This document shows, one piece after another, positions 5,664 to 64,000 of a stretch of DNA of 64,000 nucleotides. The stretch lies in assembly GCA_030248225.1 (NCBI GenBank), contig JASANE010030141.1, forward strand, positions 1 to 64,000. The letters are read 5' to 3'. The stretch is from Trileptium ribeirensis. Taxonomy: Eukaryota > Nematoda > Enoplea > Enoplida > Thoracostomopsidae. Each line of letters opens with the position of its first letter. The stretch's first letter is position 1. The notes below the pieces were generated by a model. It had not been told where the DNA came from, searched no databases, and saw nothing but the letters and a program-made list of their open reading frames with translations. Both the position numbers and the translations under genes were made by a program.

Positions 5664-17173
<11,510 letters not shown>

Positions 17174-37400: not shown

Positions 37401-40400
37401 CACACAGGTCGTCAAGAATTGTCTATATGGATTTTACGGTAGGCTGAATACGATGGTTTGCTTATCTAGAAACAGGCACAAATACTTATGCGTTGTCATT
37501 TAATTCCTATAAGTTTAGTGTCGACGAGATTCAATTTTTTCAATGGATTCAGGGTTCAAAAGGTTTTAATGTGGTATATACATCATACGCAGCCCGTTAC
37601 ATGTAATTAAACAAAATGATAATATAAAACCATTTTACCTCGTTTCATCTTCTCGTATGAGTTACTAGTTGAAAATTGTGTATGCATTTTAGCGAATTTA
37701 GTGCACTAAGGTCCCAGCGGTACCGAGGAATAATTATTTAATGTTATATTTTGTACGTAGTAGAATCCACCTCGTTTCAGTTTGTTCCCTATAAATTTAG
37801 ACCCACGAGGCTTGTAAATCTCAGTTTCCGCGACGCTGTTCGCTTGGCGTTTATCGTGTGTCAGTCCTACTGCCGACATCGATAACAAATCTTCAGCCGA
37901 ACGGCGATGCGTGTCTGAAGCTATCGGGTAGTCCCATCGGATCGCCGCTTCTTGTTTTGGTCAACACCAAATCCGGCGAAAATCAGGGAGTCAAATTTTT
38001 GCGACGTTTCAAACAAATTCTAAATCCGGCGCAGGTTTTCGATTTGATGAAGGGTGGGCCGGAATTTGGGTGAGTTTGTTTCTAATCTGATTTTCTGTTT
38101 TATCTAAAAGGAGCAGTTATTATGCTTTTGGAGAAACGGCGGAAATAAGATGATTTAATCTGCCTTTCCCAACAGTTTTAATTCAAAATGTCCACCTTAA
38201 ATTACTCGCCACGTATTGCCGAGAATAAAAAGGATTTTCTAGTATCTCGCAAGCGAGGGTGAAGTGGAGCAAGCCTAGTTTCATTAAGTTGTCATTTTGT
38301 GTAATCACTTGGAACGGGTTTTGTGGTTGATGTGTATACTATAATATTCACTTTCTGTTTTAGTTTAGACGCTTTTTCAGTCGGAGTTTTGTTCTCTCAT
38401 TTCGATATCTATTGATTGAGCATTTCAGATTGCGGTTCTTTCGAATATTTGAAACGTTTCGTGTTTTGGTGTGCGGTGGTGACGGTAGCGTTGGATGGGT
38501 ACTCTCCGCGCTGGACAAGCTTGATCTACATTCCAAGGTTGGTGAGTCAATGGGGTTAGCGAATGTACATTTTGTTGTCTTATATCGGACAGAGGGTGTG
38601 CTTTCCATCCTATTGCAGGTACGGTATATTTGTCTCTGATTAGTAGGAAATGTTTAAGATTAGCTTATACGGTTAGTGTATTGCGGTGAGCAATGACGTT
38701 GGATACCTAATATGGAGACTTATAGAAATAGCTAAAATGAGGTCCAACCAGAACCTCTAGACTACTTGACCAAAGTCGTACTTCTTTTTAACGGAATCAC
38801 AAGGTATATACTATTGCGAAGCTGTGGAGAGGCCAATGACCAATACCGATCCTGTTTGTAACGGACTCCCCACGTAACTACTATTTGGAAGCTGTGAAGG
38901 GCCATGACCAATCCCGATCTTCTTTTTATTCGACTCCACAGGTATATACTATTTGGATGCTGTGCAGAGGTCAATGACCAATGCCGATTTTGTTTGTAAC
39001 GGACTCCCCAGGTATTAACTATTTGGAAGATGTGGAGAGACCAATAACCAATGCCGATTTTCTTTGTAACGAAATCCCCGCGTATCTACTATTGGAAGCA
39101 ATGGAGGGGCCAATGCCGATCTTCTTTGTAATGGACTCCCCAGGTATATACTATTTGGATGATGTGGAGAGGTCAATGATCAATGCCGACCTTCTTTGTA
39201 ACGGAATCGTCTGGTTGTCTGTTATAAACTTGAGCTTAAGAAGTAACAAAATTCTAAGTTGATATTGATAATTGTTGCATATTTTTAATTTCAGTCAGCA
39301 TACCTGTAGGAGACGCTGGGTGCAAGGGTATAGTAGTGGATAACTGGCGCTTGGCATTGAATAGAGTTTCTTAGAGAAGGCTTTGAGGGTCTTCGCTTGA
39401 GCTTCTTAAGGAAAATTTCAATTTATTCAGAGCAACTGGCCTCTCTATCGGGCGCAAATTTTCCATGCACTGGGCAGGAACCCTGTTTCTGCAAGGCTTA
39501 TAAATCTCTATTAAACCAAATAACGGTTAAAATTCGCCTCAGGGACGCTACACCAATCTGTATGAAGCAAATTTTAAATAAATCTGCAGAAATTTACGAA
39601 ATTTTTTATTTTAGAAAAGAATTTAAGAAGTATAATAAATTGCTAATTTTTGTGGCAACTAGTTGTGAATCAAATAAAAAGAGAGCCCAAAATTTTAACA
39701 ATATCTACATTATAAACCAGGCAACTAGTTGTGAATCAAATAAAAAGAGAGCCCAAAATTTTAACAATATCTACATTATAAACCAGGCAACTAGTTGTGA
39801 ATCAAATAAAAAGAGAGCCCAAAATTTTAACAATATCTACATTATAAACCAAGGAAACAGAGGAATGCCAGATCATTCCACAGTTTTTAAAGCCAGCCTG
39901 ATATAGACGTCTTGCTAAGTATACGTCGATGCCTCAATTGCAGGGACTTGACTTACGTTACGCAATACTTCAGTAAAAACTTTTGGTTAGCAGGTGACAT
40001 CTTAAGGAACCCTGTGTTTATCCATGCGTATGGTACTTTAGCTCTACTTATAAAATAGATGTTAGAACTGGCCGAAATTTTTCGGCTTGGCCCGTTGGAA
40101 AGCGATGTCAGCCCGGAGCTACCCGACCTAAACCTGTCCGTTGGCAAACTAGGTCGGTCCGGTTCGACGAACAGAAATTTTTATGCCCCGCCCAACTTGC
40201 TTGTAATTAGGAGTTGGCACTACCGGGACGGGCCGCGGGCCGAAATTCTACCCTCTAATTTAAAATGAGCACAATCCTAAACCTCCACTTTGCCCAATAT
40301 ACCGTTTCGAGCTCTTTTCCTTTACTTGTTATTTCTATTACTGGAAACGTAAAGATTATGTTTTCAATCATTAAAGATAATCTATAGTTATATACCATTA

Positions 40401-48163: not shown

Positions 48164-50930
48164 GCACATAAGTACGATAAATCAGAAATCATCGGGTATA
48201 TACGTAGAAAAGTGAAACAGAATTAAAATCAAAGTATATAAGTACGTGATCAGAACAGGTTCAATAGCACCACGTTGAAATATATATAGGTAAACGGGAT
48301 AATTAGGTTCAAAGAGTCCCGCTATGTAACCGACTCGCGTTTTCAGTATTTCGGCCTGCACCGCCGACATGTTTTGATCAAGATGGGTATTATTATTGCC
48401 ATTTCAGAGATGGAGAATCGCTGAGGAACCGTAACCGTTTGTACAGATGTTTATATTCGGCTATATACATATTGATTGTAGTGCCCCGATGGCACGCCTT
48501 GGAACATATATATATTGGCATTTGCATGATTTCTCTATAGTATCATTGGCCATAAAGGCACATTTTCGATATGTTACCATGCTCGTATCACATAGCCGTG
48601 TATCATTGAAACCGTTATTGTTGCTCATATGTATTTTCAGGTACATAAGTTATCAGAGTGGTTGGGATGAATCGTTAACTGGATATGCATTTGTCTAAAT
48701 TTTGTACCGTATTCATACCGTTTATTGTTGTTGTAGGCGGTCGTAAAAGCGCAGCCATTGTTGTTGTCGCATACCGTATCATGCCAATATTGTGTTATGA
48801 TTGTATCGTTTCGTTGGGTCGAACAGGCCATAAAAGCGCCTGCGTTTGACCATGATTTATATGCTCTGATTGTCATAGTTTGTTGTGTATTTTCATAATT
48901 TTCAGGTTGGAAGTATGACGGTAAAGTATTTGAGATCTTTTAGGAGAATTTTGGGGATTTATACGTACGCAAAACTGATCTTTTATAGGCGTAGAACGTG
49001 AGTATGGTGAGCCCTTGCCATACTCGATTTGTAGAGAATTTTAGGACGGTACGACTCCTCCCCGCCGGACCCAGTGTGAAAGTATATATAGGTATTGCCC
49101 TACCCCGAATGGTAGGACCTCGAAACGAGTTGCAAATTTTCATAGGAAATAGTGGCCGCGACGGACTCCCGTCACGACCGTCCTCATGAATGAGGACTAC
49201 AAAAATGTGGCTGTTCGCTCGAAAGCGAACAGCAATTGAGAGAGTTGTCTGAAAATTATAAGTTCAACGTCGAAATATAAAGTTTACCAGTGCTCGCTAC
49301 ACTGGTAATTTGAGTAACATTAGGAAATATCGTCTACCAGCGTTCAATTTCGCTGGTCAAGATAAGAAACAAAATTAGAAAAGTTAGCAAATTTGGCACC
49401 GAAAAAATACCGGCTCCGGTCCATAACTCCGGAACCGTTGGGAATTCCGAAATTTAGCGCTTAACATGTATTATAGTGAATTTTACGGTCTACCTAATGA
49501 GACCGGTTTTGTGGAAATCCGACCCGGATCCACGGACTTGGGGACAAATTCGTATGTAAGAAAGCTGGTAAAATACACTTAACTAAATAATTCGACGAAT
49601 TATGGACAGAAAACCGCATGAGTGGTATCGTTAGAATCCCCAGACCCGAGGCTTTCGTTTGAGCCCGGACGGGTCTAGATGCGCCCACTTTTGGGTACCC
49701 CATAAGAAGATTTTAAAATAACGCCCCGACCGGCGTGTCACCCCTCATTGGATTCCCCGTGTCGAGACGAATTCAAAAAGGTATAAAACGCCCCAGAAAA
49801 GTGTCCCCCGAACCCAGGGGAACCGTTTAAACACCCTACCCGGAGAAAATTTGGCATGGACCCTCCCCCAAGAGCTCATTTTTCCCCCTGTAGACCGAAT
49901 ACGGTCCTGTTACACATCAAAATGTTCGGTCGGACCTACCGAGTCCGAATCCGAGGTTTAATTGGCACTTCGGCCATTCCCCGAGGACCCCCACCCTCTT
50001 TTTACCCCTTTGCCCTCTCTTTTCTTTCTTTTGTTTACATAAGCCATCAGTCCTTTTTGAAGTCTCCAGTTACACGAATGTTTATAAGTAAGCTGAAATT
50101 GTAGTATTAAATACATTTAAGCTTAAATAATGCAGCTGTTCTAAAATAGGAGTTTATTTGAAGCTGGTACTGACGGCTGGCATCCGTAGCTTTACTTCGC
50201 CAACACACGAGTGTAAATGCTCTATTAAGCTGATGAGTGCCGGTTTGAGCTTTAAGTACTGCAGTGTATTGATCTTGAGTAAACATCACGGAAGTGCCCA
50301 TAATTTAATATAAATGTTATACCAAGTATTGTATCAGCGAGCACGCGTAGTGTCGGTTTGAGTTAATGTAACGGCCACAGTTACCTGGAATAAACGCTGA
50401 ACACGGGGTTTAAGTCAACAACAATTCGCGGATACCATTAAATTAATATTAAGTTTATATAAGTTTGTAGTTTCCAGCTTATATGAAGTTCTTATCATAT
50501 TGCCGACGATATTAACAGAATTAGGAGTCAGCTTTATCAGTGGAATTAACGGCCCGTGTGGCGTTATTGTATGAAATGTGTATACGAGAGCTAACGCTTT
50601 GTGACTAGCCCGATGCCGCGAACACAGCTGAAGCGTTTGTGTTCTAAGAGGTTTAGAAGTAGTAGCTTATAAAGTTTATACTAATTTGGTATTAAGTTAC
50701 TATTAATTTTATTAGGAGTTTTATATTAGATTGGCATAAACAAGACTATAAATCTCACAAGTTGTATAAGATTTCATATAAAATCGGCCCGAAATTTCCG
50801 AAAATATGATCGGAATTCGGCCGATAAGAAAGTTGACTTAGTTAAGCAAGATTGGGTCAGAAAATCGGCCAAAAGTGCTGAATAAGCACTTTAACCGATC
50901 AATAAATTCAAAATTTCAAAATTTTAAAAT
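48164..50930. other. No gene recognised; composition shift and three hairpins
   Basis: From about 48.9 kb the sequence becomes richer in CCG/CGG and resembles the retroelement leader further right. Three simple hairpins follow each other: 49,210-49,233 (10-bp stem, CGAA loop), 49,284-49,308 (9-bp stem) and 49,336-49,357 (7-bp stem). The function is unknown. It may belong to an upstream portion of the retroelement or to an older element. Confidence 0.4.
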
Positions 50931-50934
50931 TTAG

Positions 50935-50941
50935 TATAAAA
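50935..50941 (+). promoter_or_regulatory. Candidate TATA box
   Basis: TATAAAA, with TCAGTA (initiator-like) 33 bases further at 50,968-50,973. It precedes the small frame at 50,958-51,149. This is a motif-only prediction. Confidence 0.35.
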
Positions 50942-50957
50942 GCAGAAGCGCAAGAAA

Positions 50958-51149
50958 ATGACAGCGTTCAGTATGACTTCCGCGGCGCAGAGTTCGGTCG
51001 TTTTGCAGACCGGCTCTGTCGCTCTTCAGTATTCACTGCTTGATTGGTTAATTATTTTCTTTCTTTGCTTTGCTTCTTACTTTTGGTTTATGGCTTTCGG
51101 ATGTGGATGGACGAGCGATGGACGTGCCCGATTGGAATCGCGTACGTAA
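50958..51149 (+). CDS. Small frame with one membrane segment, ends at a perfect splice donor
   Basis: 63 codons with a strongly hydrophobic stretch (LLDWLIIFFLCFASYFWFMAF) then a short basic tail. The stop codon lies in GTAAGT at 51,146-51,151, a perfect donor, so the frame may be a first exon spliced to something downstream. If transcription starts at the initiator-like TCAGTA, the in-frame ATG at 50,973 would be used. No family recognised. Expression is unproven. Confidence 0.25.
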   Translation: MTAFSMTSAAQSSVVLQTGSVALQYSLLDWLIIFFLCFASYFWFMAFGCGWTSDGRARLESRT

Positions 51150-51297
51150 GTGTGGACAGGGAGGTTGAGCGTAACCGTAGAGTATAGCGGACTAGGTTAG
51201 GCGATGGCGTGAGCAGATTAACTAAAGTAGACGGAAGCAATTAGCATTCAATCAACGTCTAAAAATTCAGCCTCCATAGGACTCCCTGTCCACACTT
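51148..51297. repeat. 16-bp perfect inverted repeat spanning a splice donor
   Basis: AAGTGTGGACAGGGAG (51,148-51,163) is perfectly complementary to CTCCCTGTCCACACTT (51,282-51,297). The left arm overlaps the GTAAGT donor of the small frame, so folding would cover that donor. The role is inference only. Confidence 0.6.
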
Positions 51298-52015
51298 TTG
51301 TCTACATGATAGATAGGCCGTCCTAGCTTGTCCAGCAGACCCGTAGTCGCCAGCGGAAATATTAGCCATCAGTTCAGCCGAAGTCGTACTGGACCTCCCT
51401 CGGTCAATGAGTTAGGACACAAACAAACGCGACACTCGCGTCTAGACGAATTTTACATGATTTCCTGAGATGAGTTAGGAATTAGGACGACATTACCTGA
51501 GCTGACCGAGGCTAAATAAACTTTATTTTGATTGAAACGTATTAGTTGAACTCCGAATCATCCACGGTCATACACGAACGAGCCCGATTTATTTAGGATT
51601 TGCCAAAGATAGCTTTCAAGATCTTATGCGTTTTACGATTTTACCTGGACAAGAGTCTGTCCAGCTATTATGGTTTCGTTGATTGGATTTATTTGATATT
51701 TGCGGATCGTTTTACGTGAACAAAACCTCCAAAATGTGGAAACATAGTCAAAATTAAAATATTTACGGATTCCCTTCAGGAATCTCGGTGAAACTCTCGC
51801 AGTTTCTTCGCAAGTATGTCTACTTTTAGATGGCATCATAAACTTTAACCTTATCATGTCGGAATTGCAAACCCGATGACCCGATAGGGGTCCGCCCCCA
51901 CCTGAAATATGAAATGTTTATAAGGTAAAATTCTTTCCAGGAATCTCGACGATTTTTGCAGTATAAACAAAGGCCCGTTAAGCCGTCCGTTTGAGTTAGT
52001 AAGCCCGGCAAAGCC

Positions 52016-52267
52016 GTGGCTCATTCAAAAATTATGAAAATTATGGACCCGGGCAGAGCAAAATCCGCCCAGGGTCGACACAAGTTTCATAGAATTTACC
52101 TGCTTTGCGCAGTTATATATACAGCTTTGCAGATTGGTTTTGGTCTTGCTTTTGCACATATTTCTATAGTTTTGAGTCTCTTTCTTTTCTCTGACTATAT
52201 AGTGAGTTCAGTGCAGCACGAAAGCCGTCGGAGACTTGAATCTCCGATATACGGCCAGCTGCAGTGA
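52016..52267 (+). CDS. Small frame with a membrane segment, unrecognised
   Basis: 83 codons with a basic N-terminal part and a long hydrophobic region (IYLLCAVIYTALQIGFGLAF and IVLSLFLFSDYIV), then a charged RRRLES tail reminiscent of ARLES at the end of the 50,958 frame. A strong hairpin follows the stop directly. No family recognised; it could be chance. Confidence 0.2.
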   Translation: MAHSKIMKIMDPGRAKSAQGRHKFHRIYLLCAVIYTALQIGFGLAFAHISIVLSLFLFSDYIVSSVQHESRRRLESPIYGQLQ

Positions 52268-52270
52268 AAG

Positions 52271-52302
52271 TATCAAATTTACCAGGGTTGGTAAATTTGA
52301 TA
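52271..52302. repeat. 14-bp perfect hairpin
   Basis: TATCAAATTTACCA, four-base loop GGGT, TGGTAAATTTGATA. It sits three bases after the stop of the 52,016-52,267 frame. It would be very stable as RNA or cruciform DNA. Its purpose is unknown. Confidence 0.8.
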
Positions 52303-53728
52303 GCAGTGGTAGAGTTTTAGAAATAAAATTGACGACGTCGCTAGACGCGATGTCGGGTCTATCGGGTCTCGGCCCGACCGACCAATTTTTGTGAGGACCG
52401 TTGACCCGGTCCTAGGAAATCGAACACAGGAGGTCAAGCCCAGCCGCAGTGCAAAAGTTAGTAGAGAAAGGCTGGCAGAATAATGAGTAATACATCGAAT
52501 GTAGTTTCTCCCCCCCCCAGTCTTAACTCAGAATATACGTAAATTTAGGAGCGGAAACCAGGAATTGAACGATTTAAAGACTCAAACCGAGTGCCCCTCC
52601 GAGCATAAAATTGGCTACGGTTGTCCTATCAACCGGGGCCTTCGTTCACTGCCCCGATTCGTCGAGCAGAGTTTGCTCGAAATAACCGTTAAACATTAGT
52701 ACAAAATTGAGCTCATTTTTTGAACGCTTTCCAAGTAACATCAAAGTAGATTTCAGTATTATTAGAGTCATGCCGAGGGCCTATGAGGCCTCGCCATCAG
52801 TCGTATCCGTTTTAGTTAAAATCATAGGCACCACCGCGTAGTAAAGTGGAACCCAAAATTTCATTAGGAAAAGCTCAAAGTTTGTGTCCCGACTTCATCC
52901 TCCCGGGACCCCATAAGTCGTACGAAAGGCAAGGCCGCCTGATCGTTCCTTTTCCTGCTGTCGCAACGCACGTTGGCGTATTTGAAACGTCTGTCCTGTT
53001 AGTGATTTGGATCGAAGAATTCTGTTAAATAAGATCTTATTGCTGTTGTGTTCATAGAATAATCTAATAGGGAACGAGCATCAAAATTAAGTAGAGTCTT
53101 TGGACATTTCATTACAGATTTTACATGGTCACACAAAAGATTGTATGTATGTATGCGAGTAGGAAGAAAATTTTGCACCGCACCGCTGTCGCACACTAGA
53201 AAAGAACTTAGGAGTCGTACCGAGGAATATTACATACTCTTGTCATGATATCCTCAAGCATTGGTGTATCATTATTGTGTTTGTTGTCATAAGTTAACCG
53301 CATCGCTACTAATTGCGAATCCAAGTACCTGATCATTATGTACCATAGTTTTGTGATTTGCATGAGCAAGATGAAGTCTCGCAAAAGTCCCGATGCACGA
53401 TCATCCCCGTATCCCCGCCTCGTTCCGCCTTTCGCTTACCTGAACCTATTGTTGTATCGGAGTACCCAACCCTGTTAGCGAATCTAGTCCTAAGCCAATA
53501 GTTATTTCGATGGCGCCTTCATGATGTCGATAACTACCCTTAGCACCCATTAGTACTAATCTTAACTTCACCCACTACTGTTTTTATGAGTAAGGTAAGC
53601 GCAGCTGTCATGAGATAAGGCTTCACAGTACACGCCGTGTTTTGACTCAGCTGTGAGAGTTCCGTGAAAAAGGCGATGACTCCGCGACCCTCCCCAACCG
53701 ATGCTCTGCTTATTACGTATTAGCGTGC

Positions 53729-53858
53729 TATAAATGTGACATAACGCTATTGTATCTGCCCGTACAATATGTATCTGTCCGCGTACCCGTAAATTTTTGT
53801 GTAACTCATCAATAAATGCTCGCTGAAAACCCGAATTGTGTAAGCGTTTTGGTGACCC
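53729..53858 (+). promoter_or_regulatory. Candidate LTR end: TATA box, polyA signal and primer-binding site
   Basis: TATAAAT (53,729-53,735), AATAAA (53,811-53,816) and TGGTGACCC (53,850-53,858) occur in the order and spacing of U3/R/U5/primer-binding site of an LTR element. TGG is the complement of a tRNA CCA end. LTR boundaries cannot be proved because the 3' LTR lies outside the window, and no terminal CA is present directly before TGG. Confidence 0.4.
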
Positions 53859-54522
53859 ATAGTAGCGATAGGAATTGAAGGGGTTTGAAATCCGTCACCC
53901 CGATCGACGACCCACGTTCAGGTTTGACACGCGCATCGAAGAAGCAAACCTGAGCGTGACTCGCCGATTACAAATTAGTTTATTAATCATTGTTATTGTA
54001 CAGGTACGACTGGTGCGACTCATTAGAAAAGAAAATTTTAAACTCACGCTGAGCACCCAAACTAGGAAATTAGATACGCGCGGATCCGACGTTAAACGTC
54101 TAGGGATTTGTCGGACCCTAGTGGGGGCCACTGGCTAAAACAAAACCAAATAATTGTCCATTTTTAGAAAGTTAGAAAGAATTTTATACTTCCCGGTTTG
54201 AACGTGGATAGGGAATAGTGGTACGGTCTCTTTGGCCTGTGAGCAGGTGACGGAGCCGACCTCCCTGGGGACCTCAAAGGTAGTACCTCGTAGACTACGT
54301 GCGCAACCCGTCCGGCAGGATCAGAACACATCCTGTGAAGCGCTCCTGCGGCTTGCTAAGCTCCGTCATTTCTTGGGCCTGACTCGCGTGGGAAAAGACA
54401 TTCGCGTGATTGAAACCCATCAGGTCCGCCCTTGAAGTCACGATAGCCGGGGTCGTATGGGCATTGCGTCTGGGAAGTGCGCAGTGCAGCAGCGTCACGT
54501 CGATATTATTACAAGTGGGGGC

Positions 54523-54616
54523 CACGCCGTGAGTAAAGTTTATTCGTTTGAACCACACGCCGTGAGTCTGGTTTATTCGTCTAACCCACACGTTTTAAGT
54601 AAATTTCACTCGTTTA
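54523..54616. repeat. 33-bp tandem repeat, three copies, in the leader
   Basis: CACGCCGTGAGT...TTTATTCGT...AACC units start at 54,523, 54,556 and 54,589. The third is more diverged (CACGTTTTAAGT). The spacing is exactly 33 bp. Confidence 0.8.
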
Positions 54617-55025
54617 TATAGTTTATGGAAATTTTGAGAAAAGTGACCTCTCGCATACATACAAGGTGACCAAATCTAGAGATATATGTATATAAGTATT
54701 GCAAGAGTTCAAGTGCATGACCAAGGATGATGCTAATCGGAGTATAGGTTTTGTTATGATTGTCACATGATTGTTATGTATTGACGATTATTGTATGATT
54801 GTTATGTCGTATCGTTATTGAACTTGTTGTTGTACCAATGCGTGGATGTACCCGTGTACATGTGTAACCGCCCGTGCGGAAAAGGAACGATGTAACCACG
54901 AGCCAAGAGGTGCGGTCCGGAGAAGCGACCCCAGAGGGGGACCACTATTTCAGGCACTTAAATCATTAACCCCTTACTCAATTAATAAGTTACTAAATTA
55001 TTATAGTACATTGGTATTGCAAATC

Positions 55026-55172
55026 GTCGTCAACTTAATAATTGATTTATTCGGACTCAATTTCGCCATATTATTGAGCCGTCGTCAATCGCCTATTCGG
55101 ACTCAATTTCGCCATATTATTGAGCCGTCGTCAATCGCCTATTCGGACTCAATTTCGCTATTTTATTGAGCC
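55026..55172. repeat. 46-bp tandem repeat, about three copies, in the leader
   Basis: Units read GTCGTCAATCGCCT then ATTCGGACTCAATTTCGC and end in ATTGAGCC. TTCGG-motif starts are exactly 46 bp apart (55,051, 55,097, 55,143). Each unit contains CTCAAT...ATTGAG, a small hairpin. Confidence 0.9.
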
Positions 55173-56067
55173 GTCACCTACTACCCGGGAACAATAACCG
55201 AGAATTGGTCGTAACCATTGGGAACTGGTTGTAGTAATTGGGCTAACTGGTTATACTAATAGAATTATTATCAACCATAATACGCGGGTTAACGGTTGTA
55301 TTATTGAATTAGCGGTACGGATAATTCGGTTATTGGTTATATTACTATTTGGGTTATCGGCAATATTAACTCGGGTTAATCGGTCAATATTATTTGGTTA
55401 TTGGAAGTATTAGTAATTAATCGGGTTATATCGGTATAACTATTGGTTTTGGAATGAATCGGGTACTGGCACGGAAATCAGGTTATTGGAATCGTCGCTT
55501 TAAAAAGGGGGACCACTTGAACTGTCGCGTTTGGTCGCCGTTATTAATTGCGACCTCACGATATCAATCAATTTGCCGGGAGTACCGCGCCGTATATATC
55601 GAAAACGATCGCCAATCGACCGCCGCGACAATTCGAATAACGCATCAATTGCCATATCACCGCCGACATCGACAAGTCACCGCCAAACCACCGTCGTCTC
55701 GACTCGACCAACGCCAATCGTAACATCATCGTCGGACGAGAAGTGCCGGTAAAGAATCGCTGATCGAGTCGCTGGTGTGCCGTGCCGTACCGACCTCAAA
55801 CGCTAGTGGAGGAGCTCGTGGATTGGAAGAACACCGCCATCGTTGGACTGGGACACTGTAAACTTTTGAGACTATCATTCGTAGTTTAATTGTTGTTGTA
55901 TAATTTCCGTTTTGTGACAAATTGATATTTGTGTGAATCGGCAGTGAACGGGTAAAGAGTTTTGACGAAATTTGGTTAAAATTTCAAAAGAATAGAGCCT
56001 GAATTTTTGAGAACCCGGCGTTGACTAGGAAAAGTTATAAGGTCTTGTTTTGAAAAGACAGTTTTTG

Positions 56068-59000
56068 ATGGCGAACCGACAAGAATACCCCATGACTGAT
56101 CTCGGAGAATACGTAGAACCGGATGATAATCTTTTTAATAACCCTGCTAATGATCTTGCTTTTGGAAGAACCCATAACCCGCCTCTACCAGAAGGCAATA
56201 ATGGAGATTTACCGCCTCTCCCCGACCCCTCGAAAGATACTCTAGGTGCCCTGTTGCACCACCTTGTTAAACGCGCCTCTGCGACAACCATAATACCCCT
56301 TCGTGATATGCCGACCTTTGAAGGAAAACCTGGAGGTCAGGATTTTGAAGATTGGATTCGAATGTTCAATCGATTGGCTAGTGCCAACAATTGGAGTGAT
56401 GAACAAAAGTTAACATGCATACCCGCACTACTGAGAGGACCCGCTCGAGAGGCCTATGCAGGCCTGACCCCAGCTCAACGACGAACCTTTGACGGTCTGG
56501 TTTACAATTTACGTTTCTTATTTTCTTCTTCGCGCCGCCCAGAGAAATCGCTCGCAGGCCTTTGCACTAGGAAGCAAGGTGCCGAGGAAACAGTCGCTAT
56601 ATATGGTTTAGAATTGCAAAAGTTGTGTGACCGAGCATTCCCCGATGTTGACCCTCCACAGAGGGATTCGCTGCTTCGTAAATTTTTCCAGAGAGGCTTA
56701 CGTGTAGAATTACGTAGACAAGTGTTGAACCAAATTCATGAATGTACCACTTTTCGCGATATGTTAGAAGTTGCTAAGCGATACGAGGATGCGATATCTG
56801 ATTGTCCTGAACCGGACACCCCCGCAGTAGTAAGTAAACCGCGTCCTACCAAGGCAGTTAATGCTCTTCTCGAGGAACCTGGAGAAGGAGTGGTCACACA
56901 ACTTCAGTCAGTATTAGAGGATCACCGTCGTGCAAGTAACGCTAATAATGATACGATAAACCGATTACTCGATGTAATCGACCGCCGAGCAGGAGCTCCG
57001 CAGCAATTGAACGCGCTTGCGCAGCCGTACGCAAATAATTCGCAACCAGTAGCACCGCACCCGCAGATGCCTCTTATAAATTGTTTCCGTTGTGGCCAGA
57101 ATGGTCACTATGCTCGCTATTGCCCGATGGTGGCATACCCTCCGCCAGAACCAGCAGGTGCTGTAGCGCGAAGACATCAGCCTGTCGATGTATATGTCCC
57201 CAGCTATGTACAGCGTGGAGCCCAGCCAAATCGCTCAGGAGGCTCAAATGAGCCCTATAGTAGCAATCAGTTTGATAATGGCGCACGCCGCTTTGATACT
57301 AATCGCATAAATGGTCAGCAGTATCGACCATATCAAGGTGTTAATAATAACCCGCGCAGTTATTCCGATGGCCCTAGAAACGGACCGATGAACGCATTTA
57401 ACAATTACCCGCAGCAGAATAACGCATTCCAGCGCTCACGTAACGATCGCGCGTCGATGGGACCCGCGTATCCCCAGAATAAACCCCAGTTCCAGAATAA
57501 TTACGGTCAAATGAGAGAAAGACCCAGCCAGTGGAATGGCGATAGGCAACGCCGCCGCAACCAAGTTAATTGTAATGCAACCCGCCGTAGGAGAAATAAA
57601 GATCCCAGCCCCGCAACGAACCACCGGTTAGAGGTTTTGAGCCGAGAATTAGGAATAATCCAGGAAAGATTAGGGTTTGGTGAACAGTCCGGACAAGTAA
57701 ACGCAATTGCCGCAACGGACGAACAGTATGATAGTGACGGATATTTAACCGCCGAGGACAATTATAGTGATTATGACGAAACTGATGGTGGTGATGTGTT
57801 CGCTCGACATGTGAACGTGGTCGTAACCGCACCGTTTGATGATGCTACGTGTCACACTCGGAGCCGCGAGGCGTCACCCTCGACCGACCATGTTACCACC
57901 GATGAGTTAGTGGAGATGGACGAGGACACTTGTGAACGTGAAGGAACATATTACGACTATGAGGGCGAGTTTGGAAACAGAACAAATAATAATAGATCAG
58001 AAGAATATAGCCAGGAAGAAATATCTAAGATGTGTAGATATCCATCAGAAAATGGAAAAGAACAGTCCGTGAATGATTTAAACAGTTGTGAGATGATTCA
58101 GGAAGTAGCACATGAAATAATGGAAGTAGCAAATGAGAGTATGGATATAGCTATTGAGAATATAACTGAAAGAATGGATGTAGCAGATAGTTGTAGTTCT
58201 AGATTTGATGATAATTTTCCGGTAGCCGGCGCCGATGAGATAAGTCCGTGTGAGTTTGATAATTTTCCGGTAGCCGGCGCCGATGAGATAAGTCCGTGTG
58301 GGTTTGATAATGCCGGTATGCGCCCTGGGATCACCTCCTGTAGGATTTCCGGGATCCCCAGCTCCGTGGAGATGATTGATAGTGATGTTATGGAAGCTGA
58401 AAGGGATGTTGGTAATTTTAATTTTTATTCCTCCCCCGAGACTGGCCCATTGAGTTGTGTAGTGAGAGAGAATATTGGCCACTGCGATGTATCCCGCATA
58501 ACTGCCGTCAGGGCGGGTGGTAACGCTCGTAGCGACCGGATTCCGGCTACGTCGATGTATCGCGCAATGGCGTTTACGCACGCCGCGTCCGGATCCAATA
58601 ATTATATAAGTTGTTCAGCTAGTAGTAACGTTAGAGTTAAGGATCCAGGCGTGGAAGCCACTAATACTTTTATGGTTCAACCTGCCCAGCCTTCAAGTGC
58701 TCTGCCGTGTGAGGTATCCATGAAGTCTGTAGAGAAGTGGGATGAGTCAGGGATGATGGAGGCTGCATCGGCCGATCCAGGTACCAATTCGGTAGCGATC
58801 AGTCCTAGTCCCGTTCAAAATACTAAGGATTGCATATATCCGTGTCATGAGTCGTATGGTGTGAATGTGTGTGAGACGGACGGCAACGTCAGCCGTTCTG
58901 TTGTTGAGTGTGGTGTGTCATGTGAATCCCCTTTTAGGCGCGCTTTAGAGAATAATTTTCCGGTAACCGGCGCCGAAGAGATAAGTCCGTGTGGGTTTGA

Positions 59001-62000
59001 TGATTTAAAACCGGCTGATATTATTATGGGGCAGGAGGTGAATTTCCCACCCTCACTGACCAGGGGTTCTCCAGTCATTGGGTCCTTCCTTGATGCTGAC
59101 CGGGGCTGCCCTCGTCGCCCGTGTCCAAGTGGAGGTACTGAGCGATTCGCGACCGTTCGGACTGAAGAAGCGGATGTGATCGTTGGGGCTGAAATGATTG
59201 CCCGGGGTCCATCCAGGCATGGGAGTGAAGTAGATTGGGTGATAGAATTTGACCGATCCAAACACTGTGAGGTTCCAATTGCGTCCACCGTCGAAGTAGA
59301 TGAGGTGATAGAATTTGACTCTTCCACCCTCGGTGAGTCTGCATCTCCCGTCGTTGGAGCGCGAAACGACGGTTCCCTTGATGAAGTTGAATTGAGTTGT
59401 ACTCCGACCAGCGAACAGGAAACTGCGATTGATTCCCCGTGTCCATGTGGAGGTAGAGAGCAAGTTGCGTACTGCCTCACTGAGGATACGAGCATGATCA
59501 TTGGGAGTAAACAGAGTTATATACCGACCTGCCTGGGGTCTGTTCAGGCACGGGCCTGTAGCGTAGTGTCTTCAGGAGCCGACCGATCGCAGTGCCCTGA
59601 TATCGTGGTCGTGGGAGTTAATGATTTGTGTAGTGTAATTGATAGTAATGAAGTTGTTGAAAATGGTAACGAGAACAATGTAGTTGAAGTCAGTGAAGTG
59701 ATTGAAGGTAGTGATGAAGGTAATCTAAACGAAATTGTTGAAATAGGTATTAGTAGTGACGTAGATCAGGTAGTTGAACTAAGTAAGGAAGTTAATACCC
59801 AGATTGGGACAGGATTTGAGATTTCAGATACGGAAGGTAACGAGGAAAATAGTAATGATGAATCAGGTAACGAAGGTGAGAGTGAAGAAGAAGTTTGGTT
59901 GTATTGGCAAGATCCCTACCGAGCCTGTTACCGTAGGCAAAATACGCCGCCCCCACACGAGTGGGACTCGACAGGAAGATGGGAATGTCAGCGACCGCCT
60001 AAGAAAAGTAGTCCAGCAAGCAAGGCTGAAGTGGTAATTGGAAGCAGTATAAACAAAGAGTTAAGTCAGAGTGAAGAACCGCTAGTCAGCGAAGAAGTTA
60101 GTGAGGAAGAAGAATGCGATCAGGAAATTGCAAAGATTATGGAGCATAATAAAGATTTAGTACAGTCGGAGGATCCTATCGAAGGAGTGCCAAGTACGCC
60201 TCTGGATGGATTAGGTGAATCCAATGAAGAAATAAGGGATGTAGAGTCGGGTGACGACCTGGGTTTACATTGTAGCTCCGAAATAGAGCCCTCAAGTCGA
60301 ATATCTTCCGTAGAATTTAATGCGACACCTGACACGTTCTTATTAGAAGGGCCCGACGTTGCAGATGATAATAGTAATGATAATGATAACATGGACTTTA
60401 ATTGGACATACGAGACTTTGTTGGAACATGTGAACGAGGAAAGAACGAAACGATTACGTGAATTGGACGAACGCTTGCATAAATTGTTTCGAATGGACTT
60501 TGATAATAATATACCTATTGAATTTGGAACTTTGAGAGTGATGACAAACGAAGAACGTAACCGACTGTTAGGACCGGACTACATGTTCACCATCCCCAGT
60601 GAGAAAGTGAAGACGATGAAGTACCGTTATCCACGAATCGAATTTACCCCATTTCAACCTAATCCAGGAGACCGAGACGAAAAACGGATGGAAAATGCCG
60701 AGTTTATAGTACCCGACAAATGTTTAGGCCTCGAATGGCACTGTTTACCGCAACCAAGAATTCTCTTTTATAGGCGTACCCTTATCGTAATAGAACAACT
60801 GAATAATTTAGCTCGACTGTTTGAGATACGTTCGGACGCATGTAACCAGCCAGAACTTAAAAGGGATGCAACTGTTTTAGCTCATTTATTAGGCGTAGTC
60901 TCACCGATAGAACACAGAACTTCAGGAATTTACATAAGTATCGTAGCTTTAGCCTCATTGGAACTTCTTTTAGAGTTGGTGGGTAAATGCGTGTCTGGCC
61001 AGACGCTCCGCCAAGTCATGAAGGAAACCTATAAGGCTGAGTTAAGTTATCTACCCACTTGTTTGAAATGTGGAGCAAATCACCTTGACCGGTCTAAGCC
61101 CTTAATCCTCCCCGAGAGTGAATGTTATTTCGACGGATATTATGGAAGGTGGAGTTACACCGGAACCTTATTTACCAGTTGTGCCTTTATCGATTTAGAT
61201 GGAACCGTTTGGCCTCGTTGGTCATACTTCATAGGACTAGGAACACAGGCAGCCAGAGTGGGTTATCGCGATAGCAACCTGGAATTCCACGAACTAATCA
61301 AGCAAGCTCCTTATCTGTTAGATATTATTTTTCGCAATCAAGGTACCCAAGGTATTCCAGTAGATGAATTGGTGCAGCATATCACTGAACATACAACGTT
61401 CGAGAAGGAATCTCATAGACAAGACCGCCAGAAACTGATAAAGGCCCAGCTACAATTATTAAGACATCCGGTAGCCTCGCTAACATGTGAAGCTCCAGTA
61501 CGAAGCACTTCAGTAGAAGACCTCGATCAGCAGTTAGCTGATGCGATGGAGGAGTACCTAGATGAAACGGACACTGACCCTGAGACGAATAATAGTCAGA
61601 TTAACGAGGATATAAGCCTTCCCTGCCAAGATGAAACAGAATTAAAACCAGTCCCCGAGGAACCTCAAAGGACGCCAGTCGCGTCTAATCCATTAGTTGG
61701 ATACAGGACTAGTACCTTAGTTAATGCTATTTGTGGAGTTCTCTTAGTTATGTGGTTGGCATTGATTTCAACCACTCATGCAGTTTCGACGCCGATGAGC
61801 GAGAAAATATCACGACTAGGAGTAGTAGTGAACTCTCAAGTAGGAGTTGTAGTTGAACCTCAAGGACTAATGATCACGTCAGATCAACTCACATATTTAC
61901 CAGTAGTTTTACAGCTAACATTAAGACATTGGAGACCAGATATGAGAGCTCCCTCAGACGAAGCTACCCCTTGCCTACTATACAACGCGGATGGCTCGTG

Positions 62001-64000
62001 TTCATCCGATTGTTGCTACTGGAACAATTGCACAACTGACCCGCAGTTATACAAAACTATGCGAGAATTAGGAACAGAGTTAAGTGGAACCTATAACGGA
62101 GTCCTAGATATTAGTTATTATTCAAACCTTATGCGCTCATTCTGTGATAACAACCTACACTTTTGTCATGATGATCCTAAGAGGAGCAAGCGTTTCGTTA
62201 CGCTTATTGCAGCTGCCGCTGGAGCAGTGTCAGGATTTTTAGGAATGGGAATGTCCATCTCCAATGGCATTCACATACACAACATGGGAAACCAAATGCA
62301 CGCTATAAGAACGTATATGAGGGATACCCTGGAAGCAACCCTACGTAACACGAAGGAAATTAAGAAGTTGACCCAAGCAAACGAAGAGTTGTATGCCTTT
62401 CTACACCATAGTATGCAGGAAGTTGTAGATATGGTAGAACAGGTTAGATGCTCACAACATAGAGCAGTGATGCAAGTGAACCAGATGTTGCTTACCCATA
62501 CAGTTCGAGCTAACATTCGATCGTCCGTCCAAGCTATAATGCAGTCCATGTTGAGTGGAGAATTAACGCCGACCGTAGTAGATGCCCTAATGTTAAGACG
62601 ACTATTTGAGATGGATCCAAGAATTTCCCAGTCTATTTTAGCCCGTGAACCTAATTTAGCATACCAATTTGGACGGGTTTTACCAGTTAACGTGGATTTG
62701 AATACTTTTCGATTCGGATTTATTTTGCAGTTACCCTTACCAACCACGAATGATGTAAGACCGTATTTTCGCATATATAACACTGGCTGGAATGTACCCG
62801 CTACTAGAACGCATGTAAAATTACCGCTACCAGAATACGCAGCACGCGTATCTTCATCGCGCTTTGAAGTGTTGAATTTAGCCGCTTGCAAACGCCGTCC
62901 TGGCATTGCATTTTGCGAACCGCATGCGCTTGTAACTGATCAACGCATACATTGCCTTGATTGGATTATCTCGGGTGACCTCGTCTCTGAGTACACCAAA
63001 TCAAAATGTCAAAACCGTTCTCTAATCGGACCACTTGACAATGGTACCGATGTCTACACTACTATGCAAGGAGTCTTGCTCCGTACTTCGGAGGAGAAAC
63101 TCGTAATCACCGACAAACGACATTTCGCACATATTACACAAGGACAAAGTAGAATAGTACCCGACCATGGAGTCGTTTGGATGCCGCATGGCAACTACAC
63201 ACAGTTGATTGTAGGATCACTTATGCTAACAAGCATGTTACAACCTGAGGAATTAATGGTTCGAGTTGGCCCTAACATTTCCATGGACCAGTTGTCTAAT
63301 ACCAAGCTAAAACCCCTCACTTGGAGTTCTTTAGAAAATGCTAAAGCCATTAACCTACAAGTAGCTCAAATAGCGAAGGACCAGTTACACAAGGTTATAG
63401 CCCTTCCTGCACTCGAATATACTGGACTCTCCCCGTACGCAATAATCACTATAATAATAGGCATCATTGTACTAGGATATGGCCTATATAAGTGTAAATT
63501 ACCCCTACGATGTGCTCATTGTTTACCCAGATGGTTCCCTGGTAAAAGCCGAGTGGATGACCACCAGATTGAACTAACGCCGACCACCCAATGGATGATG
63601 ACTTCACCTGAAGCATCTACCACTTCTTATACCGATGAAGCACATGCTATGACACCGCTACAGAAAGCTGAAAGTACAGCCTCCCTACCATCACCCGATA
63701 GGACTCGTAGAACTAGTAGAACCCCGCGCCGTTATACACGGAAACGCCCTATTCCAAGCGCCCCTTCTGATGAAGGAATGGTATTTATCGATGATGGAGA
63801 GTTATTCGCTAACCCCATCCGCCGACTCCGTAGTAGATCTCGTACTGGTGTCGTAACCAAACGAGTCAATGCCCTCAAAGCCAATAATACCCCGCTGATT
63901 ATTAACACCACCATTCTAGGAACACCCGTAAATACTCTTATTGACACTGGAGCAGATGTCTCCATTTTATCTCAAGCTATTGCAGCCCGACTAGGCTTAG
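56068..64000 (+). CDS. Gag-Env-protease polyprotein, continues past the right edge
   Basis: One frame of 2,644 visible codons. ATG 56,068 is the first after the in-frame TAA. Order: short N-terminal region (1-81); Ty3/gypsy-type capsid (82-242); CCHC knuckle (C339, C342, H347, C352); Asn/Gln/Arg-rich tail (353-530); acidic, Ser/Glu-rich linker (about 550-1440); unrecognised globular domain (about 1442-1805); Env with internal hydrophobic signal (about 1883-1905), furin site RSKR (2039-2042), fusion peptide (2043-2062) and transmembrane anchor (2458-2474); then protease with Asp-Thr-Gly-Ala at 2626-2629. In known retroviruses and errantiviruses env lies after pol, usually in its own frame or spliced. 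Separation of the products would need the element's protease, host signal peptidase and furin, or alternative RNAs. Whether it is expressed as one protein is unknown. Confidence 0.93.
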   Translation, partial: MANRQEYPMTDLGEYVEPDDNLFNNPANDLAFGRTHNPPLPEGNNGDLPPLPDPSKDTLGALLHHLVKRASATTIIPLRDMPTFEGKPGGQDFEDWIRMFNRLASANNWSDEQKLTCIPALLRGPAREAYAGLTPAQRRTFDGLVYNLRFLFSSSRRPEKSLAGLCTRKQGAEETVAIYGLELQKLCDRAFPDVDPPQRDSLLRKFFQRGLRVELRRQVLNQIHECTTFRDMLEVAKRYEDAISDCPEPDTPAVVSKPRPTKAVNALLEEPGEGVVTQLQSVLEDHRRASNANNDTINRLLDVIDRRAGAPQQLNALAQPYANNSQPVAPHPQMPLINCFRCGQNGHYARYCPMVAYPPPEPAGAVARRHQPVDVYVPSYVQRGAQPNRSGGSNEPYSSNQFDNGARRFDTNRINGQQYRPYQGVNNNPRSYSDGPRNGPMNAFNNYPQQNNAFQRSRNDRASMGPAYPQNKPQFQNNYGQMRERPSQWNGDRQRRRNQVNCNATRRRRNKDPSPATNHRLEVLSRELGIIQERLGFGEQSGQVNAIAATDEQYDSDGYLTAEDNYSDYDETDGGDVFARHVNVVVTAPFDDATCHTRSREASPSTDHVTTDELVEMDEDTCEREGTYYDYEGEFGNRTNNNRSEEYSQEEISKMCRYPSENGKEQSVNDLNSCEMIQEVAHEIMEVANESMDIAIENITERMDVADSCSSRFDDNFPVAGADEISPCEFDNFPVAGADEISPCGFDNAGMRPGITSCRISGIPSSVEMIDSDVMEAERDVGNFNFYSSPETGPLSCVVRENIGHCDVSRITAVRAGGNARSDRIPATSMYRAMAFTHAASGSNNYISCSASSNVRVKDPGVEATNTFMVQPAQPSSALPCEVSMKSVEKWDESGMMEAASADPGTNSVAISPSPVQNTKDCIYPCHESYGVNVCETDGNVSRSVVECGVSCESPFRRALENNFPVTGAEEISPCGFDDLKPADIIMGQEVNFPPSLTRGSPVIGSFLDADRGCPRRPCPSGGTERFATVRTEEADVIVGAEMIARGPSRHGSEVDWVIEFDRSKHCEVPIASTVEVDEVIEFDSSTLGESASPVVGARNDGSLDEVELSCTPTSEQETAIDSPCPCGGREQVAYCLTEDTSMIIGSKQSYIPTCLGSVQARACSVVSSGADRSQCPDIVVVGVNDLCSVIDSNEVVENGNENNVVEVSEVIEGSDEGNLNEIVEIGISSDVDQVVELSKEVNTQIGTGFEISDTEGNEENSNDESGNEGESEEEVWLYWQDPYRACYRRQNTPPPHEWDSTGRWECQRPPKKSSPASKAEVVIGSSINKELSQSEEPLVSEEVSEEEECDQEIAKIMEHNKDLVQSEDPIEGVPSTPLDGLGESNEEIRDVESGDDLGLHCSSEIEPSSRISSVEFNATPDTFLLEGPDVADDNSNDNDNMDFNWTYETLLEHVNEERTKRLRELDERLHKLFRMDFDNNIPIEFGTLRVMTNEERNRLLGPDYMFTIPSEKVKTMKYRYPRIEFTPFQPNPGDRDEKRMENAEFIVPDKCLGLEWHCLPQPRILFYRRTLIVIEQLNNLARLFEIRSDACNQPELKRDATVLAHLLGVVSPIEHRTSGIYISIVALASLELLLELVGKCVSGQTLRQVMKETYKAELSYLPTCLKCGANHLDRSKPLILPESECYFDGYYGRWSYTGTLFTSCAFIDLDGTVWPRWSYFIGLGTQAARVGYRDSNLEFHELIKQAPYLLDIIFRNQGTQGIPVDELVQHITEHTTFEKESHRQDRQKLIKAQLQLLRHPVASLTCEAPVRSTSVEDLDQQLADAMEEYLDETDTDPETNNSQINEDISLPCQDETELKPVPEEPQRTPVASNPLVGYRTSTLVNAICGVLLVMWLALISTTHAVSTPMSEKISRLGVVVNSQVGVVVEPQGLMITSDQLTYLPVVLQLTLRHWRPDMRAPSDEATPCLLYNADGSCSSDCCYWNNCTTDPQLYKTMRELGTELSGTYNGVLDISYYSNLMRSFCDNNLHFCHDDPKRSKRFVTLIAAAAGAVSGFLGMGMSISNGIHIHNMGNQMHAIRTYMRDTLEATLRNTKEIKKLTQANEELYAFLHHSMQEVVDMVEQVRCSQHRAVMQVNQMLLTHTVRANIRSSVQAIMQSMLSGELTPTVVDALMLRRLFEMDPRISQSILAREPNLAYQFGRVLPVNVDLNTFRFGFILQLPLPTTNDVRPYFRIYNTGWNVPATRTHVKLPLPEYAARVSSSRFEVLNLAACKRRPGIAFCEPHALVTDQRIHCLDWIISGDLVSEYTKSKCQNRSLIGPLDNGTDVYTTMQGVLLRTSEEKLVITDKRHFAHITQGQSRIVPDHGVVWMPHGNYTQLIVGSLMLTSMLQPEELMVRVGPNISMDQLSNTKLKPLTWSSLENAKAINLQVAQIAKDQLHKVIALPALEYTGLSPYAIITIIIGIIVLGYGLYKCKLPLRCAHCLPRWFPGKSRVDDHQIELTPTTQWMMTSPEASTTSYTDEAHAMTPLQKAESTASLPSPDRTRRTSRTPRRYTRKRPIPSAPSDEGMVFIDDGELFANPIRRLRSRSRTGVVTKRVNALKANNTPLIINTTILGTPVNTLIDTGADVSILSQAIAARLGL
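56311..56793 (+). other. Gag capsid domain (Ty3/gypsy type)
   Basis: Residues 82-242. Opens with PTFEG, then DFEDWIRMFNRLASANNWSD and LRGPAREAY, and ends FFQRGL...LNQIHE...VAKRYED. This is the retrotransposon Gag capsid layout shared by Metaviridae and Arc-like proteins. It builds the particle shell. Confidence 0.92.
57082..57123 (+). other. Nucleocapsid zinc knuckle CCHC
   Basis: CX2CX4HX4C (CFRCGQNGHYARYC), residues 339-352, a single knuckle. It binds genomic RNA in this family and is followed by an Asn/Gln/Arg-rich region likely to add RNA affinity. Confidence 0.97.
58216..59001 (+). repeat. 45-bp coding repeat in the polyprotein linker
   Basis: NFPVAGADEISPC and its neighbours occur twice in tandem (58,216-58,260 and 58,261-58,305) and again, slightly changed (NFPVTGAEEISPC), at 58,957-59,001. 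Other motifs also recur (PCPxGGxE at about 59,125 and 59,443; VIEFD at about 59,242 and 59,308), so the linker seems to have grown by internal duplication. Confidence 0.9.
60391..61480 (+). other. Unrecognised globular domain between linker and Env
   Basis: Residues about 1442-1805. Unlike the acidic linker, it has balanced composition with many aromatic and hydrophobic residues, a CLKCG pair (near 61,060) and segments such as SIVALASLELLLELVGKCVS. It looks folded. It is not a known retroviral domain to me (not protease, dUTPase, RNase H or integrase). Confidence 0.6.
62182..62253 (+). other. Furin site and fusion peptide
   Basis: Arg-Ser-Lys-Arg (62,182-62,193) is followed at once by an Ala/Gly-rich apolar stretch (FVTLIAAAAGAVSGFLG), the hallmark of a class I fusion peptide at a new N-terminus. 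All key features are intact. Confidence 0.9.
63439..63492 (+). other. Env transmembrane anchor
   Basis: AIITIIIGIIVLGYGLY is an uninterrupted apolar stretch followed by basic and Cys residues (KCKLPLRCAHC), as in a type I membrane anchor with palmitoylation-prone tail. Confidence 0.92.
63892..64000 (+). other. Start of retroviral-type aspartic protease
   Basis: LGTPVNTLIDTGADVSIL contains the catalytic Asp-Thr-Gly (63,943-63,951), with the beta-strand context (xLIDTGAxxS) of retropepsins. The flap and remaining parts lie beyond the edge. Polymerase domains would be expected next. Confidence 0.9.

Follow-up and report, generated by a model that had tools for sequence, protein, structure and literature searches.

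An envelope-like region between Gag and protease in a long open frame of Ty3/gypsy-like elements from the nematode Trileptium ribeirensis

One open frame with Env between Gag and protease

The window analysed here is a 64,000-base stretch of Trileptium ribeirensis DNA, the first 64 kb of a 67,964-base contig in an assembly (G000) of 687,459,628 bases and 20,229 contigs. It ends within a retrovirus-like element in which regions resembling Gag, an envelope protein (Env) and an aspartic protease follow one another in a single reading frame. This frame (56050-63999, + strand) has 2650 codons, contains zero stops and is still open at the end of the window. When these 7,950 bases were simulated 1000 times under a first-order Markov model, no open run exceeded 258 codons (mean 107), far below the observed length. 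The proposal of a preliminary description of this DNA that Env sits between Gag and protease in one continuous frame is confirmed.

Gag (56068..57600, +) begins at the ATG at 56068 and includes a capsid-like region and a CX2CX4HX4C zinc knuckle (57082-57123, +). The knuckle was read in the translation and matches zf-CCHC slightly over the Pfam cut-off (E-value 1.9e-4), a match also over the cut-off in one copy of family B, the second of two families (A, which includes the window copy, and B) described below. The PNMA match is weak and under the cut-off (E 0.003). About 1,500 residues additional to the preliminary description separate the knuckle from Env. They comprise a long acidic, repeat-bearing linker (57601..60390, +; 20% D+E, 7% K+R), recognized by its composition and direct repeats and without a Pfam match, and a region that we call domain X (60391..61530, +), which has a homologue in family B (40.7% identity over query residues 8-364) and no useful Pfam, PDB or NCBIfam match.

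The Env region opens with an internal signal-peptide-like hydrophobic core (61711..61785, +), assigned from hydropathy and methionine positions and lacking a methionine at its start in the window copy. The putative surface subunit (61789..62193, +) shares 39% identity with P0001, a database protein discussed below, and ends in a furin-type RSKR motif (62182-62193). Directly after RSKR, the putative fusion subunit (62194..63438, +) starts with a hydrophobic fusion-peptide-like stretch (62194-62250, +) and continues into an ectodomain with conserved cysteines. A membrane anchor (63439..63495, +; mean hydropathy 2.06) and a tail or linker (63496..63867, +), delimited by layout and comparison with P0001, lead to the N-terminal part of the protease (63868..63999, +). 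This part carries LIDTGAD (DTGAD at 63943) and matches gag-asp_proteas (E 2.2e-6) and Asp_protease_2, both slightly over the Pfam cut-off; the protease continues in the rest of the contig (L010). The capsid, knuckle, signal, furin site, fusion peptide, anchor and DTGA protease of the preliminary description thus reappear at these positions, with PNMA weak and Env recognized by layout.

Pfam families gave no match to the Env region of the window copy at E-values up to 10 and no useful match to family B Env or to P0001, and neither single sequences nor profiles gave a useful NCBIfam or PDB sequence match; the PDB matches of the two Env profiles fall in the protease part. Because no Pfam family matches, the label 'Env' refers to the layout and its conservation, and from the layout we infer a class I-like protein.

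Recurrence and conservation in two families

The arrangement recurs throughout the same genome. A query with the Env ectodomain (window 61786-63420) returned at least 81 matches, a lower bound since 80 of 2548 first-look candidates were scored. These matches fall into family A (at least 35 matches with identities of 80-100%, two of which are parts of a single locus) and family B (at least 46 matches, 62-63% identity to the window Env). A gag query, for which 116 of 2387 candidates were scored, returned at least 116 matches. Among the matches listed, the open frame around Env reaches 4,813 amino acids in family A and 4,749 in family B, frames of at least 2,000 amino acids surround Env in 9 of 35 family A and 35 of 46 family B matches, and Env is stop-free in all 46 of the latter.

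When the two lists were compared by eye, 22 contigs were common to both; one (C10539) was excluded, its gag and env being some 70 kb apart. Among the matches listed, gag and env occupy one open frame in 12 of the 21 contigs that have both nearby, three from family A (C19808, C10639 and C15631) and nine from family B (C6627, C15720, C6937, C1224, C3253, C15157, C7014, C17839 and C6146), and do not in the other 9. The family B copy on C1224 (L049) has gag, knuckle, X and Env in one 2,383-codon frame that reaches the end of the locus. On C15681 a type B gag is paired with a type A env. Of 30 family A loci (L011-L040), 29 have X upstream of Env and 29 have protease downstream of it, and protease adjoins Env in all four family B stretches. 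The three pieces X, Env and protease agree in frame number in 11 of the 30, one of which (L029) has stops within Env; frame shifts or an absent piece characterize the other 19, and many family A copies are decayed. In the sequence behind Env, nucleotide divergence is 4-9% in six within-family pairs of copies.

The frame continues into pol in the better-preserved copies. In all eight downstream stretches searched with tblastn, four per family, it remains open from the end of Env through protease, reverse transcriptase (RT) and RNase H, extending 1,714 codons past Env in L043, 1,859 in L044 and 2,264 to 2,350 in the other six. Integrase zinc-binding (H2C2) and core (rve) domains follow RNase H in the same frame in both copies scanned with Pfam, L041 (family A) and L046 (family B), and are succeeded by 764 and 800 residues, respectively, that lack a known domain and run up to the stop. 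The 764 residues in L041 (L041:4501-6792), which belong to the main frame, are proline- and charge-rich as judged by eye; they can be aligned to family B only in part.

Behind the main open reading frame (ORF) is a second one encoding a NADAR domain (L041:6902-8068, E 1.7e-16; L046:7016-8140, E 3.3e-17; 60% mutual identity). Open frames comparable in length (358 to 432 codons), identified by position only, occur at this place in L042 and L043 of family A and in the three other family B stretches, and L044 has no open frame there. The NADAR-position frame follows the main frame after one in-frame stop in three of the four family B stretches and is in a frame different from the main one in L047, L041 and L042. 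The order in intact copies is therefore Gag, linker, X, Env, protease, RT, RNase H, integrase and extension, followed by the NADAR ORF, and the main ORF spans about 4,700-4,800 amino acids in the longest copies.

The copy in the window is damaged. In the remaining 3,964 bases of the contig (L010) the protease is completed and RT (RVT_1, E 3.1e-22) follows; the frame then breaks in a low-complexity stretch, behind which come RNase H (E 7.7e-36) and further residues of the pol tail. From L010:2443 the sequence is 89.7% identical to window 55025-56591, that is, to 5' sequence of the element and a second gag start. Neither integrase nor later parts occur before this jump, which may reflect a deletion, a tandem insertion or an assembly error. 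The low-complexity break that separates RT from RNase H and the jump out of the pol tail are both assigned to L010:1380-2443. Extension to the right, as proposed in the preliminary description, therefore yielded RT and RNase H on the contig of the window and integrase in other copies, and no integrase in the window copy.

This damage would suit an artefact, either a chimeric assembly or an env gene nested in one copy. The recurrence of gag-env-protease in many contigs and in two families with saturated synonymous divergence, together with the Env-protease junction in P0001, refutes such an explanation, to which we give almost no credence. The same observations (29 of 30 family A loci, four of four family B stretches and P0001) dispose of the suggestion that the protease belongs to a separate older element joined by assembly error, and the concern that no other genomic copy might have this order is answered by the 12 contigs in which gag and env share an open frame.

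P0001 is a 1,083-residue protein in ENA (12 member sequences, one contig) and the sole match among 4843 candidates to a query with the Env region of window 59002-63999. It is 38% identical to the window over 595 aligned positions, has a complete protease behind Env, and does not align to the window in its first 90 residues. It may derive from another species or from T. ribeirensis itself. No Env relative was found in IMG/VR, GTDB contigs, plasmids or phages. The other protein-database searches were empty but missed P0001, which was within their length range and, for one of them, was itself part of the query alignment, and we give these nulls no weight. One 25-residue gag-like match (L001) occurs in IMG/VR.

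To describe selection, one family A copy (window, L010 and L041) was compared with one family B copy (L049 and L046) over six pieces. The proportion of synonymous differences (pS) is saturated or nearly so throughout, at 0.75 to 0.89, and the ratio of nonsynonymous to synonymous rates (dN/dS) could therefore be computed for X alone, where it is 0.08. The proportion of nonsynonymous differences (pN) is highest in X (0.38), which is about 41% identical between the families, followed by Env (0.23), the gag capsid piece (0.19) and RNase H (0.17); the two protease-RT pieces have the lowest values (0.14 and 0.11). Env, with 62.5% of residues identical between the two copies, evolves faster than RT and far slower than its own silent sites. 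All 12 ectodomain cysteines are invariant across A, B and P0001, and an RxKR cleavage motif is present in each. The retention of Env with these features while silent sites became saturated suggests that it has been kept functional between Gag and protease for a long time.

Homology to the 5' non-coding sequence begins at window 51750 in one copy (C14098) and 52266 in another (C15631), and blastn against window 50001-56100 gave identities of 91.0% (L053) and 86.1% (L051), the L051 alignment being gapped at 55135-55615. Up- and downstream direct repeats in C14098 (805 aligned columns, 79.8% identity) run to the edges of the stretches compared and are in keeping with long terminal repeats (LTRs); no direct-repeat pair was found within the stretches compared for C15631. 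Homology between C14098 and C15631 reaches about 2.5 kb into L050, roughly 12 kb past Env. The element thus probably exceeds 20 kb.

Affinities and possible mode of expression

Among solved structures, the best matches to a 166-residue piece of RT are Ty3 RT (4ol8, E 4.5e-39) and Ty3 Gag-Pol (7q5b, 2.7e-38), followed by 8r0s, an 'Enzymatic polyprotein' (4.2e-29), and other RTs at 3.6e-14 and weaker. Given this proximity to Ty3, the element looks like an unusual lineage within Ty3/gypsy (Metaviridae). It shares with that group a Ty3-type RT, the CX2CX4HX4C knuckle, the order protease-RT-RNase H-integrase and the H2C2 and rve integrase domains, and differs in having Env and X between Gag and protease, a main ORF of up to 4,813 amino acids and an extra NADAR ORF. 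It also departs from the gag-pro-pol-env order of Retroviridae in that Env precedes protease.

In retroelements env is commonly located behind pol and expressed from a message of its own; in errantiviruses, too, env follows pol. Related elements differ from the T. ribeirensis arrangement as follows. The Env-F proteins of insect gypsy elements have a signal, furin site, fusion peptide and anchor (PMC12992720), the same layout as the Env described here. Env of the Drosophila env-bearing gypsy elements is made from a spliced subgenomic RNA (PMC12992720). In the T. ribeirensis element Env lies between Gag and protease rather than behind pol, and a query with the end of Env matched nothing further downstream in eight loci. 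Because the Env described here matches no Pfam family, the similar layout may or may not reflect common descent with the errantivirus protein. In the BEL/Pao group of LTR elements (Belpaoviridae, e.g. Tas), gag and pol are in some cases accompanied by env (PMC8742986); here, in contrast, RT is Ty3-like and env stands between gag and protease. The gypsy-like TelKA and Vesta elements of bdelloid rotifers also have an additional env-like or other ORF; the env-like gene is an ORF3, and ORF3 is described as lying downstream of pol (PMC5408684). Capture of a NADAR domain has been described for Ectocarpus Gypsy elements (PMC12477816); here the NADAR domain is in a separate ORF behind the integrase-bearing frame. 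Cer1 of C. elegans is a Ty3/gypsy element with an extra protein made from a spliced RNA; the extra ORF follows pol and shows no resemblance to Env (PMC10309623). Troyka elements were considered as relatives and dropped because none is stated to encode an envelope (PMC12440569).

We found no earlier description of env between gag and protease in literature covered in part, with the survey of metazoan env elements by Chary and Hayashi outside that coverage. The arrangement is likely, though not proven, to be new, and with these caveats the suggestion that it represents an undescribed lineage is supported, with an RT nearest to that of Ty3. An env that selection has retained between Gag and protease, as part of a frame reaching about 4,800 codons, goes against the rule that env lies behind pol and shows that env can be acquired elsewhere in the element.

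For an Env that shares one conserved frame with Gag before it and Pol behind it, the simplest reading is a membrane-threaded polyprotein. We favour, with a probability of about 0.55, a very large Ty3/gypsy-type element that encodes such a Gag-Env-Pol polyprotein and a NADAR ORF, and infer that the full message is translated as one chain and processed. The internal signal peptide would be picked up co-translationally at the endoplasmic reticulum (ER), where signal peptidase would split off the Gag part, leaving Gag in the cytosol. Env would pass into the lumen and be cleaved by a furin-like host protease. The anchor would halt transfer, so that protease and Pol would end in the cytosol and stay attached to the Env tail until released by the protease of the element. 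Env and Pol would arrive jointly at the site of budding. In this mode of working the product would resemble the structural polyproteins of flaviviruses and alphaviruses. The predicted topology (a hydrophobic signal, a 12-cysteine ectodomain and one anchor, then the enzymes) supports such a polyprotein. Methionine positions in the window copy point the same way: none lies within the 54 residues before the signal core, the nearest being at 61546 (55 residues upstream) and another inside the core at 61750, which disfavours an independent start there.

Several observations weigh against a membrane-threaded polyprotein. AlphaFold models from two-sequence Env alignments were unconfident (predicted local distance difference test, pLDDT, 32 and 33), and we do not count their helices as evidence. 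This region is disrupted in the majority of family A copies, with 10 of the 30 loci retaining X, Env and protease in the same frame with a stop-free Env. One polyprotein would yield equal amounts of Gag, Env and Pol, which is unusual for infectious retroviruses. In family B and P0001 the signal peptide begins with a methionine, which makes a separate Env message quite possible. Splice-site-like signals are also present, including in the leader: a crude scan of window 53001-63990, made without a shuffled control, found ten donor-like and three acceptor-like sites over its thresholds.

The last two points would suit an Env made from its own spliced or trans-spliced message, in the manner of errantiviruses, with the unbroken frame serving little or only Gag-Pol. 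This is the principal alternative, and we regard it as a serious if less probable one. It has a precedent in the spliced subgenomic Env RNA of Drosophila env-bearing gypsy elements (PMC12992720), and the crude scan, again without a control, places donor-like sites at 54004, 54247 and 54910 in the leader, with acceptor-like sites at 60774 and 63531. An Env expressed solely by splicing would need no common Gag-Env-Pol frame, yet at least 12 contigs of two diverged families keep one, and the family A copy has no methionine near the signal. The acceptor-like site at 63531, right behind the anchor, would also allow the Env segment to be optionally removed like an intron, so that Gag-Pol and Gag-Env would be two products of one gene. 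Such excision would solve the problem of product amounts, but at the thresholds used neither acceptor-like site within the ORF of the window copy is in phase with any of its six intra-ORF donor-like sites, and we consider this improbable.

If the polyprotein is made as a single membrane-threaded chain, how a retrovirus-like element balances and sorts Gag, Env and Pol from one product becomes directly testable. A bolder version, which we hold tentatively and at slightly under even odds, is that an old giant Ty3/gypsy lineage turned the retroviral plan into a flavivirus-style polyprotein, with Gag, Env and Pol woven through the ER as one chain, Pol delivered via the Env tail, and NADAR as an accessory enzyme.

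Leader and flanking sequence

The region upstream of Gag (51750..56067, +) is element-derived non-coding sequence, as indicated by blastn homology to other copies, and perhaps comprises an LTR plus leader. A weak candidate for the beginning of a primer binding site is TGGTGACCC (53850..53858, +); TTTTGGTGACCC occurs once in the window and 0 times in shuffles. A longer tRNA-Trp-type primer-site pattern had no match there, and the 9 bases alone fit. Rfam at gathering thresholds gave no match in the window, and ARAGORN found no tRNA in it.

Two frames in the window (38364-38636 and 43540-43797) seem to resemble exons of a diacylglycerol kinase, and a host gene may therefore adjoin the element. 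Elsewhere in the window, at 8066-9517, is a tandem array with an 89-base unit, present in 10.0 and 6.3 copies in two rows.
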